DNA from: Calditrichota bacterium
Lineage (GTDB): Bacteria; Electryoneota; AABM5-125-24; Hatepunaeales; Hatepunaeaceae
Assembly (NCBI GenBank): GCA_016867835.1
Contig: VGIQ01000019.1
Coordinates: forward strand, 1-32,627
DNA length: 32,627 nt
Direction of reading: 5' to 3'
The position numbers and the translations under genes were made by a program. The notes under the pieces are model-generated. The model was not told where the DNA came from. It ran no database searches and saw only the letters and a list, made by a program, of their open reading frames with translations. Shown piece by piece: positions 636-9,756 of this stretch (its first letter is position 1; each line of letters starts with the position of its first letter).

Positions 636-1118
636 ATGATGGACATCCATCCGGGTCTGATGATCTGGACCATCATCTCATTCGTCATTCTTCTGGCGAT
701 CCTGAAGAAGTTCGCCTGGGGACCGATCCTCAAGGCGCTCGACGAACGGGAGTTGGGCATCAAGACCAACATCGAACAAGCCCGGGCGGCTCGCGAGGAA
801 GCCGACAAAGCCCTCGCCGAATACAAGCGCAAACTGGCTGAAGCCCAAGCCGAAGCGCAAGCCGTCGTCTCCAAGTCCCGCGCCGATGCCGAGCGGGTCC
901 GCGAGGATCTACTCGCCAAGTCCAAGGAAGAGGCGCAGGGGCTGGTCGAGCGGGCTCGCCGGCAGATCGAGATGGAGACGCAAGCCGCGCTCAACTCGAT
1001 ACGCGCCGAGGTGGCGGACCTGGCGGTGAATGTGGCTTCCAAAGCGATCGGCAAGTCACTGACGCCCGACGTCCACAGCCGTTTGGTCGCTGAATCCCTT
1101 GCGGAGTCGCGCAATTGA
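636..1118 (+). CDS. atpF: ATP synthase F0 subunit b
   Basis: This 160-residue peripheral-stalk subunit connects the membrane sector to F1. One N-terminal membrane helix (about 7-24, IWTIISFVILLAILKKF) is followed by the family motif WGPILKALDERE. A long charged, alanine-rich coiled coil then runs to the C-terminus. The length is normal for the family. Two adjacent ATG codons (636 and 639) are possible starts, and neither has a convincing Shine-Dalgarno sequence. The stop overlaps the TTG start of atpH by four bases, so translation of b and delta is probably coupled. Confidence 0.95.
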   Translation: MMDIHPGLMIWTIISFVILLAILKKFAWGPILKALDERELGIKTNIEQARAAREEADKALAEYKRKLAEAQAEAQAVVSKSRADAERVREDLLAKSKEEAQGLVERARRQIEMETQAALNSIRAEVADLAVNVASKAIGKSLTPDVHSRLVAESLAESRN

Positions 1119-1648
1119 GCGGACTCCTGACGCGGCGCTACGTCGTGCCGCTGTACGAGGTGGCGCTGAAGGCGAACGCTCTCGACGCCGTCGAAGGCGA
1201 CCTGAAGCAACTCGACGGCGCGTTGGCGGCATCGCCCGACCTGAAGCGGCTGCTGCTTAGCCCCTCCGAGCCGCGCGCGGTGAAAAAGCGCCTTCTTGAG
1301 AGGCTGTTCACCGGCGCGTCGCCCTACACGCTGAAGTTTATCGGTCTGGTGATCGACAAGAACCGCCCCGAGGTGCTGCTCGCCGCGAGCCGCCTCTACG
1401 GCGACCTGCTCAACGCCCATCGCGGTATCGTAACCGGTACGGTCGAATCGGCGGTGCCGTTGGGCGAAGCGCTCTTCGGGCAGTTGAAAGCCGCGCTGGG
1501 CGAGCGCTTCGGCGGGAAACTGGAACTGGAGCAACGCGTCGATCCGGGGCTGCTGGGCGGCGTGCGGGTGCGGGTGGGGAACAGCGTCTATGACGGGTCG
1601 GTGAAGGGGCGGCTGGATAGGATTAGAGCCGCTTTGGCTGGACAATGA
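1115..1648 (+). CDS. atpH: ATP synthase F1 subunit delta
   Basis: This 177-residue protein caps F1 and joins it to the b stalk. The N-terminal helical domain begins with the usual RRYVVPLYEVAL pattern. The C-terminal half ends with VDPGLLGGVRVRVGN and then YDGSVKGRLDRIRAAL, the conserved end of delta/OSCP proteins. It starts with TTG inside a TTGA overlap with the atpF stop. Its own stop overlaps the ATG of the next gene (ATGA). That next gene is not an ATP synthase subunit, although atpA would be expected there. Confidence 0.94.
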   Translation: MSGLLTRRYVVPLYEVALKANALDAVEGDLKQLDGALAASPDLKRLLLSPSEPRAVKKRLLERLFTGASPYTLKFIGLVIDKNRPEVLLAASRLYGDLLNAHRGIVTGTVESAVPLGEALFGQLKAALGERFGGKLELEQRVDPGLLGGVRVRVGNSVYDGSVKGRLDRIRAALAGQ

Positions 1649-1932
1649 CCAAGTTGCTCACTATCGACAATTCTCGGCGTATTGAACTGCCTGAAGAAGC
1701 GTTGGAGTCACTCAGAGCCAAACCCGGTGATTCTATTCGGCTGCGGACCTTGGACAACGGAGACGTGGTGCTTGAGCATACCATCGACATTATGGAACTC
1801 TATGGCTCCATTGATCCCAAAGGGATTCATTTGAGCGATGAGGAGTTGGATGGAGCTCTTGGCAAATATAGATTTGAAGACACGTTTAGTGGATTGCCCG
1901 AAGGAATTGGGACTACTTCGAGGGAAGTGTGA
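1645..1932 (+). CDS. AbrB/MazE-like swapped-hairpin DNA-binding protein (antitoxin-like)
   Basis: The 95-residue product has an N-terminal AbrB/SpoVT-type swapped-hairpin domain (about 1-46: IDNSRRIELPEEALESL, KPGD, then paired strands ending VVLEH). A short tail follows with ELYGSI...GIHLSDEELDGAL, as in AbrB-type antitoxins usually paired with PIN-domain toxins. Residues 74-95 do not follow the usual tail and no PIN gene follows. Instead it overlaps the methyltransferase-nuclease gene by four bases (GTGA). Members of this fold autoregulate their operons, so it may act as a controller of the downstream restriction gene; this is inference. Base composition is more AT-rich than the flanking atp genes, which fits horizontal acquisition. 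Confidence 0.72.
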   Translation: MTKLLTIDNSRRIELPEEALESLRAKPGDSIRLRTLDNGDVVLEHTIDIMELYGSIDPKGIHLSDEELDGALGKYRFEDTFSGLPEGIGTTSREV

Positions 1933-3167
1933 AAGATTCAGTGAAAAATCGACTTATCTGCGGCGACAATCTTGTTGAGTTGGCGACATTGCCGACGGAG
2001 TCCGTTGATCTTATCTATATTGACCCGCCTTTCTTCAGCAATCGGAACTATGAGATTGTTTGGGGGGATGAAGCCGAGATTCGCAGTTTTGAGGACCGCT
2101 GGGAAGGCGGAGTCTATGCTTATATCGATTGGATGAAGAAGCGTGTGCAGATCTTATATAGGATTTTAAAACCTACTGGATCATTTTATCTGCATTGCGA
2201 CTGGCATGCTGGACATTATCTCAAAGTCATGCTTGATGATATATTTGGGCGAGAGAACTTTCATAATGAGATTGTTTGGCACTACTTCATGGGCGGGAAA
2301 TCAAGACGCTTCTTCGCTCGAAAGCACGATGTGATATTCTTTTATACGAAGGGCAAGCGATGGACTTTCAATTATGTTGAGGTCGAGCGTCGTCTCCCCA
2401 AAAAGCCCAGTTTAGGAAGTCATAAGCCGCTTGTTCACAAGGGAGATGCCTGGTATAGCACGGTGGGAATGGATGACGTATGGGATATTTCAGGCGTATT
2501 CAACATGAGTAAAGAATACCAGGGCTATAATACACAAAAACCTGAGGAATTGCTTGAGAGGATTATTTGGGCATCATCGAACCCTGGTGATCTTGTCTTG
2601 GACGCATTTTGCGGCTGCGGCACAACGCTGGCAGTTGCACAAAAATACGGAAGAAGGTGGATTGGGATTGACATTTCTCCTTCAGCAATAGCATTGATCA
2701 AGAAACGCTTAGCAACGATAGGAGTGGATGAAGATTCACTGCTAATAACTGGGATGCCGAAGAACTTGGCCGACTTGAGGAAGTTGAAACCGTTCGAGTT
2801 TCAGTACTGGGCAATTAACGAACTGCATGGAACACCAAGCTCAAAGAAGACTGGCGATATGGGAATTGATGGGTTTTCATTCCTCGAGAGCCATCCAATC
2901 CAGGTGAAGCAATCGGATGGTGTTGGAAGAAACGTTGTGGATAACTTTCTATCTGCACTCAAACGTTATTACAAGACTCCCCGACGTCAATATCACGGTC
3001 TAATCATAGGTTTCAGCTTCACCAAAGGAGCATTTGAAGAAGTAGCTCGATTGAAAGGCGAAGGAGTGAACATTGAACTTGTGTTGGTTGAAGATATATT
3101 AGGCCGTAAGATCAGATTTGAGCAAGTTGTTCAGCGCAACCGTCAAAATGGATTGCAAATATCTTGA
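1929..3167 (+). CDS. DNA methyltransferase (beta-class N4/N6-amino type) fused to an Mrr-like nuclease domain
   Basis: In this 412-residue protein the catalytic motif IV (DPPF, 32-35) comes first and the AdoMet-binding motif I (FCGCGTT, 227-233, with GIDIS at 246-250) comes later. That is the beta-class order, with the target-recognition region between (about 110-200). The C-terminal part (about 289-395) resembles the Mrr/type IV restriction endonuclease core. It has GDMGIDG (catalytic Asp D314), then IQVKQ (Q325/K327 of the PD-(D/E)xK-like site), then a segment with GLIIGFSFTKGAFEEVA, as in Mrr proteins. One chain could therefore both modify and cut or sense DNA. It starts with GTG, overlapping the AbrB-like gene by four bases. 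AT-rich codon use contrasts with atpH and atpA. Methyltransferase identity is strong; the nuclease domain is a motif-level call. Confidence 0.85.
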   Translation: MKDSVKNRLICGDNLVELATLPTESVDLIYIDPPFFSNRNYEIVWGDEAEIRSFEDRWEGGVYAYIDWMKKRVQILYRILKPTGSFYLHCDWHAGHYLKVMLDDIFGRENFHNEIVWHYFMGGKSRRFFARKHDVIFFYTKGKRWTFNYVEVERRLPKKPSLGSHKPLVHKGDAWYSTVGMDDVWDISGVFNMSKEYQGYNTQKPEELLERIIWASSNPGDLVLDAFCGCGTTLAVAQKYGRRWIGIDISPSAIALIKKRLATIGVDEDSLLITGMPKNLADLRKLKPFEFQYWAINELHGTPSSKKTGDMGIDGFSFLESHPIQVKQSDGVGRNVVDNFLSALKRYYKTPRRQYHGLIIGFSFTKGAFEEVARLKGEGVNIELVLVEDILGRKIRFEQVVQRNRQNGLQIS

Positions 3168-3202
3168 TCTTGCGCCTGTCACCATCATTTACATTGGCAT
3201 TG

Positions 3203-3241
3203 ACACCCGTCATCAGTCATCACTCATCAGTCATTTAGCAC
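3203..3241 (+). promoter_or_regulatory. G-poor leader of atpA with short direct repeats, no Shine-Dalgarno
   Basis: The 39 bases before the atpA ATG contain only four Gs. They include two copies of ATCAGTCAT (3212-3220 and 3226-3234) and no purine-rich ribosome binding site. The leader composition resembles those of atpE and atpD. A role in SD-independent initiation is inferred. Confidence 0.4.
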
Positions 3242-4762
<1,521 letters not shown>

Positions 4763-4859: not shown

Positions 4860-6332
4860 TTGCTTGTGAAGACAGGATCAGCCTTTAAGGGCAATACCCG
4901 CACCGGAATCGGCCTTATGCTGTTGTTGTTGACCGGGTTCTCGATCTACTTGCCTACGACCGGAATCAAGCCGTCCGGAGATGATTTTGACAAGTTTTTG
5001 CCGTCTATTATCGCTTCAGAAACTTCGTGGCCGGCGCTCTTTTCTCCCTTGATAAGACCGATTCCCTATAATATGTATCGACCCGGCGGTGCGTGGGTCT
5101 TGCAGGGTCTTGGAGAAAGGCTGTTCGGTAATGGAGCACAGGGCGGCCAGTGGATCAAATTAGCGGTCTATCTGGCGTCTTTAATGCTAATATATCGGAT
5201 AGCGAGACGGCTATTCGATGGGTCAATTCCGGCATTGCTTGCGATGGGGCTGACGATCTTCCATCCTCAAATGCACGCTGCCATTGCTTCAATAGACGGA
5301 ACTGCAGATGTGGTTTCCACGTTCTTTCTATTAGTTGCTGTTTTAGCGATGCTGCGAGCCACTCAGGAACCAGGTAGTTATGATAATTTGATTATTGGTC
5401 TGGCTACTATAGGCGGCCTGATGTTCAAAGAAAATGCCGTAGCCATTCCGGCCTGCCTCGGTATATTACTTCTCGCACGAGCCGATTGGATGCGAAATCG
5501 GAGACTTTGGCTGGGAGTCATGTTAAGCGCGATTATAGTTTTAATTTACATCGCCATTAGGATTGTGGCGGGGCTGACAATACCTGGCTCCGGGCGTTAT
5601 GCACTATCGTTACTTAATATTCCGGTGAATCTTGCGCTACTTGTTGGCGGTGCAGTGGTAACTACCAATACTGTCACGATCTATACTGAGCGGGGCATAT
5701 ATTTGGTATGGGGGGCAATATCAGGATTGGTATTGTTCCTCCCCATTTCACTTGGCTTATTCTCTGTTCAAAGTCGCAATCGAAAGCATGACCTGAGACT
5801 CACTCTGATGCTTGTGTTGGCGGCGGTTTTTTCACAGGTTCCCTCATTATTGATGGAACATATTAGTGAAATGCACCTCTATCGCAGTCTGCCCTTTCTA
5901 TGTATGGTTGCGGCGATAGGATTGACTCGTGCCTTTAATGCAACCTCTCGAGTATTACGAGCCTTAGTGATATCAACACTGCTTGTCTTTTTACTCACCG
6001 GATTAAACAGCATAGATGCAAAGCAAGAGTTTCTTTATGATAACGGTGCGAGAGCCAATCGAATGTTGATGCAAATACGGCGGGCCGTTCCCGATCCAGA
6101 GAAGAGATCCAAATTCTGGCTCATTCCGGATAGATCAACAGGCGAAATTCGTGAGTATAGCATTTATCAACAGAAAGCCAATACGATCATTGCTTACAAT
6201 CCTGTGACCTATCTTTACCGACGAAGCGATTTGCTTTCGATTGTCGAACCTACAAAGACCGATACTCAGGGTGTCAAAGTATATTATTTCCGAATTATGC
6301 CTGGTGATTCCATACTTTATCTTGGTCGGTAG
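4860..6332 (+). CDS. Multi-pass membrane protein resembling GT-C/PMT-family glycosyltransferases
   Basis: The product is about 490 residues with some ten hydrophobic segments, starting at about 15-33. The first external loop carries an acidic pair (GDDFDKF, D41-D42), where GT-C glycosyltransferases keep their catalytic acidic residues. A following YRPGG segment and a long run of helices resemble dolichyl-phosphate-mannose/PMT-like or TMTC-like proteins. Such enzymes use lipid-linked sugars at the outer face of the membrane. The C-terminal soluble part (about 400-490) has no recognised domain. The TTG at 4860 is the longest start and the GTG at 4866 is equally possible; neither has an SD. Composition is clearly more AT-rich than the atp genes on either side, suggesting acquisition. 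No link to ATP synthesis is apparent. The family assignment is tentative. Confidence 0.6.
   Translation: MLVKTGSAFKGNTRTGIGLMLLLLTGFSIYLPTTGIKPSGDDFDKFLPSIIASETSWPALFSPLIRPIPYNMYRPGGAWVLQGLGERLFGNGAQGGQWIKLAVYLASLMLIYRIARRLFDGSIPALLAMGLTIFHPQMHAAIASIDGTADVVSTFFLLVAVLAMLRATQEPGSYDNLIIGLATIGGLMFKENAVAIPACLGILLLARADWMRNRRLWLGVMLSAIIVLIYIAIRIVAGLTIPGSGRYALSLLNIPVNLALLVGGAVVTTNTVTIYTERGIYLVWGAISGLVLFLPISLGLFSVQSRNRKHDLRLTLMLVLAAVFSQVPSLLMEHISEMHLYRSLPFLCMVAAIGLTRAFNATSRVLRALVISTLLVFLLTGLNSIDAKQEFLYDNGARANRMLMQIRRAVPDPEKRSKFWLIPDRSTGEIREYSIYQQKANTIIAYNPVTYLYRRSDLLSIVEPTKTDTQGVKVYYFRIMPGDSILYLGR

Positions 6333-7282: not shown

Positions 7283-9756
<2,474 letters not shown>

Follow-up and report, generated by a model that had tools for sequence, protein, structure and literature searches.

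The gene at positions 1929–3167 of the window (the whole stretch of 32,627 nucleotides that was analysed) encodes a 412-aa protein that is probably a one-gene restriction–modification (RM) enzyme of a Type IIG/IIC-like kind, a rating that covers the whole scheme, including the lateral arrival of the gene and its role. According to this scheme, the methylase module would bind a specific sequence via its one target-recognition region (TRD) and methylate it, with N6-adenine as the predicted target, and the Mrr-type domain, lacking a sequence reader of its own, would cut near the same site when unmethylated. The gene would have arrived laterally beside an orphaned VapB antitoxin gene, would be read through from the ATP-synthase operon, and would serve at the atp site as phage defence and as an addiction module, since loss of the gene could expose the chromosome. 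The relevant features are the following:

1115–1648, plus strand: atpH (F1 delta subunit), host gene upstream of the insert
1645–1932, plus strand: AbrB/VapB-like antitoxin gene, 95 aa (MazE_antitoxin, E 1.5e-4)
1929–3167, plus strand: methyltransferase–nuclease open reading frame, GTG start, 412 aa, single chain
2004–2705, plus strand: beta-class N6_N4_Mtase domain, aa 26–259 (PF01555, E 8.3e-52; nearest solved folds CcrM, RsrI, and M.BceJIV)
2280–2513, plus strand: hypervariable, putative target-recognition region, aa ~118–195 (per-region identity across homologues)
2784–3101, plus strand: predicted Mrr-type PD-(D/E)xK nuclease domain, aa 286–391 (D310, D314, Q325, K327)
3242–4762, plus strand: atpA (F1 alpha subunit), host gene downstream of the insert

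Methylase and Nuclease Domains

The methylase half corresponds to PF01555 over aa 26–259 (E 8e-52), and motif IV (DPPF, aa 32–35) precedes motif I (FCGCG, aa 227–231, within FCGCGTT, aa 227–233), which is the beta-class order that the sequence-only reading had claimed. Its sequence neighbours among solved structures were M.BceJIV, CcrM, RsrI, and MboIIA, and a fold search with the full-length model returned CcrM, RsrI, and M.BceJIV as the top solved folds for this half. The DPPF motif is one that we take to point to N6-adenine methylation, and the methylase half is predicted to be a beta-class N6-adenine-type methyltransferase.

The nuclease domain was not reported by any of the searches of the full 412-aa protein against Pfam, NCBIfam, PHROGs, and PADLOC, and surfaced only when the C-terminal part was scanned alone and across the family. 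Homologues were gathered from the same genome, its relatives, GTDB contigs, plasmids, phages, and IMG/VR, and the C-terminal domains of 63 sequences picked by profile match were aligned (alignment A2), with the divergent C-termini of L013, L022, L071, and L099 left outside. Only six columns were invariant among the 63 members, namely D310, G312, D314, G315, V326, and K327 in window numbering. The motifs GIDG (aa 312–315) and IQVK (aa 324–327), followed by GLIIGFSFTKGAFEEVA, had been the basis for proposing a nuclease in which D314, Q325, and K327 should be conserved; this held for D314 and K327 in 63 of 63 sequences, and position 325 proved less strict (Q in 39, S in 23, E in 1). SxK thus replaces QxK at the nuclease site in about one third of the family, a subgroup in which cleavage could be weakened.

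When scanned singly, 61 of the 63 C-terminal domains matched Mrr_cat (PF04471; E ≤ 1, best 1.1e-11), which confirmed at the sequence level that the resemblance to Mrr-type nucleases is not due to chance; the window's own domain scored slightly below the Pfam cut-off of 21 (19.4 bits, E 0.0012). A sequence profile of the domain gave no significant nuclease match in the PDB, and the fold search did find one: the AlphaFold2 model built from alignment A2 (pLDDT 88.8) retrieved MspJI as the first Foldseek match (prob 1.00, E 4e-3), a moderate match with a TM of 0.49–0.56 by query length, and EndoMS/NucS were also among the nearest PDB entries. MspJI is a Mrr-cat enzyme with a D…QxK site (PMC3874153, PMC12707154). 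Structure prediction had been proposed as a check of the C-terminal domain, and the predicted fold did not turn out to be unrelated to PD-(D/E)xK nucleases. Conservation, Mrr_cat matches, and modelled fold therefore carry the assignment of aa about 286–391 as a Mrr-type PD-(D/E)xK nuclease domain beyond a reading of motifs, and the combination of methyltransferase and Mrr-type nuclease on one chain is upheld at the level of predicted domains.

Target-Recognition Region and Family Distribution

The search for homologues with the same fusion was successful. Among 90 distinct open reading frames with a C-terminal match, 74 keep both methyltransferase motifs together with the nuclease motif. The nuclease is lost or diverged and the methylase kept in L011, L022, L047, L051 (a group), and L099, the direction of loss to be predicted for a nuclease that depends on the methylase. 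A nuclease motif lacking a regular methyltransferase motif was seen in few members, several of which are truncated or frameshifted or likely regex misses. The family extends over bacteria, archaea, and many phage contigs, and many of its members in IMG/VR and phage records are annotated as DNA methylase.

Per-region identity to the window revealed a single hypervariable stretch, aa 118–195, situated between the two methylase motifs, and none in the nuclease. Identity in this stretch was 19–39% for all homologues except L030, and the flanking core was mostly 50–80% identical (up to 81%). Since no other variable or DNA-reading domain was found, the simplest mechanism would be one region steering both methylation and cleavage. 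The exception, L030, matches the window at 79% in aa 118–195 and is located on an IMG/VR contig, where its neighbours are a terminase gene and a transposase of the IS1595 type. The core tree nevertheless places the window with L031 (split with 96% ultrafast-bootstrap support) and apart from L030, which suggests that the recognition region has been exchanged between family members.

Genomic Context

The gene is situated between atpH and atpA, in agreement with the earlier placement in the ATP-synthase operon. The start of the AbrB-like gene overlaps the atpH stop by 4 nt (ATGA), and the GTG start of the methyltransferase–nuclease gene overlaps the stop of the AbrB-like gene by 4 nt (GTGA), which chains the three genes translationally. 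The insert spans ~1.6 kb (about 1649–3241) and is AT-rich, with a GC content of 44–45% compared to 60–65% in the flanking atp genes, a composition that is foreign. No inverted repeats or clear duplication that would define a mobile element were found at its flanks, the Rfam scan returned no element, and promoter and terminator scans gave scores not above those of shuffled sequence. No helicase or Res gene lies beside the gene in the window, its neighbours being the AbrB-like gene and atpA. Expression alongside ATP synthase and a role in defence, both of which the sequence-only reading had put forward, remain putative.

That reading had also coupled the AbrB-like gene to the enzyme, an interpretation that the homologues do not support. 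Behind seven of the nine same-class homologues inspected (L143–L151) lies a PIN (VapC) gene, complete or truncated (E < 1e-8); L150 is followed by a 56-aa PIN fragment, and L149 by neither gene nor fragment. No AbrB-like gene was seen beside the relatives L030 and L019. Directly 3′ of 1645–1932 a PIN toxin gene is absent and the methylase–nuclease gene occupies the slot; because no PIN gene remains there, the AbrB-like gene is probably a solitary VapB antitoxin whose VapC is missing. The pair at L150, found in the window's own genome on contig C36 directly upstream of gatB, is another addiction-module remnant among housekeeping genes.

The locus was surveyed in 36 genomes of the phylum that carry atpH and atpA on one contig, with gaps computed by hand from coordinates. 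The two genes adjoin in 33 of them (gaps of about 20–255 bp), and inserts are present in the other three, G000 (1.6 kb), G007 (2.1 kb), and G014 (2.5 kb), all of which hold RM or toxin–antitoxin genes. The G007 insert is composed of a methylase-only relative (L011, 285 aa, 61% identical) and genes encoding HEPN and nucleotidyltransferase proteins, and the G014 insert bears the nucleotidyltransferase followed by HEPN, in reversed order with respect to G007, along with two uncharacterised open reading frames. In G006, two toxin–antitoxin-like gene pairs are located just upstream of atpA, one MazE-like/PIN and the other an Unstab_antitox gene whose 107-aa partner is unclassified; atpH was not found in this 94%-complete genome, whose atp operon may be split and which was left out of the insert count. 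A gene encoding a 720-aa repeat-containing protein also precedes atpA there (locus L128, contig C51). On the core tree L011 is grouped apart from the window, among other relatives (moderate support), a placement in favour of independent insertions, and the idea of the junction as a landing site rests on small numbers.

Other members of the family are found at other sites. The window's genome carries a second copy, 51% identical, which lies between uvrB and purD and shares 4 nt with the latter. The G006 gene most closely related to this copy is likewise located directly after uvrB, so the copy appears to be vertically inherited. Further copies lie behind gatB in G012 and behind pyrD in G017; in this phylum, then, such genes commonly stand alone behind housekeeping genes. 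Post-uvrB methylase–nuclease genes were recorded in two genera (L135, 6005–7303; L139, 5930–7129). The window's atp operon contains two additional genes. A second AT-rich gene (4860–6332) forms an insert between atpA and atpG; it encodes a PMT_2-type glycosyltransferase of 490 aa, and none of the relatives' atp loci that were examined contained a match to it. The 175-aa open reading frame at 7283–7810, between atpG and atpD, has no Pfam match and occupies the same place in 8 of 8 same-class relatives, which marks it at the sequence level as an uncharacterised gene fixed in the ATP-synthase operon of the class.

Alternative Explanations

The most serious competitor, which we hold to be unlikely, is an orphan methyltransferase with a regulatory or anti-restriction function, whose Mrr-like domain merely binds or nicks DNA or is inactive; the domain could then be a DNA-binding or regulatory relic. 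Many relatives sit in phages, whose DNA is protected by methylation on its own, and L030, the closest phage-record homologue, has a terminase gene as its neighbour. At this atp site G007 has kept the methylase but no nuclease, NA-iREase1 (PF22722, annotated as an inactive REase family) matches 41 of the 63 members, and SxK variants are common. Against this, D310, D314, and K327 are invariant in 63 sequences, which would be unexpected for a dead domain, and 39 members keep QxK as in MspJI (PMC3874153, PMC12707154). A modification-dependent, Type IV-like nuclease that cuts otherwise-modified DNA, with the methylase marking self DNA, seems improbable. The nearest folds and family (MspJI, Mrr) do include modification-dependent enzymes, but Pfam, whose matches are of methyltransferase type on the full protein and Mrr_cat on its C-terminal domain, finds no SRA, winged-helix (wH), or Mrr_N reader domain in the 412 aa, specificity variation falls entirely within the TRD of the methyltransferase, and a modification-dependent nuclease fused to a methylase would be in danger of attacking the enzyme's own methylation product. 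Modification-dependent cleavage, one of the two options of the sequence-only reading, consequently loses ground, and cutting of unmodified sites fits better.

An assembly or binning chimera, in which the insert would not truly belong to the atp operon, is the least credible of these explanations and very improbable: the assembly is a draft of 214 contigs and the GC step at the insert is sharp, but the start/stop overlaps of 4 nt are clean at both upstream junctions, the atp operon continues downstream of the insert, and a relative is found at this junction in an independent genome, G007. The one-gene RM enzyme remains our preferred reading. Its extension to a large family of phages, bacteria, and archaea filed as DNA methyltransferases, as minimal beta-class/Mrr RM enzymes with exchangeable TRD cassettes that spread in an addiction-type manner into or behind housekeeping operons, with atpH–atpA as a recurrent landing site, is put forward tentatively and may well not hold.

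Comparison with Known Systems

The layout of beta-class methylase plus Mrr domain was not described in the open literature searched and may be catalogued in the subscription literature or REBASE, which lay outside that search; nothing direct on RM or toxin–antitoxin genes within the atp operon was found in the open literature either. If active, such proteins would rank among the smallest complete RM systems, at one gene and about 400 aa, and would depart in layout from textbook Type IIG; many "methylases" of phages and bacteria would then have to be re-annotated. The near-matching TRD in the phage contig of L030 suggests that one specificity can be shared by phage and host, and the atpH–atpA inserts amount to a small natural experiment on whether addiction genes are retained by attaching themselves to essential operons.

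Type IIG/IIC enzymes (BpuSI, MmeI, BcgI) likewise carry a methylase and a PD-(D/E)xK nuclease on one chain, and, as predicted here, one specificity module would serve both activities. In known examples of these types the nuclease is N-terminal, whereas the window protein combines a beta-class order with a predicted C-terminal Mrr-type QxK nuclease in only 412 aa, with its TRD inside the methylase. Type IIG enzymes are described as single chains that join a nuclease to a gamma-class methylase (PMC4081073); being beta-class, our protein would work like Type IIG and is not filed as a classical member. The MspJI family and EcoKMrr share the Mrr-cat fold and the D…QxK active site with the predicted nuclease domain, but they cleave DNA that is modified and have readers of the SRA-like or Mrr_N kind, while the window protein has a methylase partner and no reader. 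CcrM, M.RsrI, M.BceJIV, and Type III Mod resemble its N-terminal 270 aa in motif order and fold and, unlike it, lack a C-terminal nuclease; Type III RM additionally needs a separate Res helicase-nuclease, which is absent beside the gene. Regarding VapBC, the adjacent AbrB-like gene is of the VapB kind, but the putative RM gene stands where VapC would, and in sister genomes VapBC or HEPN–MNT modules are found at this atp junction or close to it.
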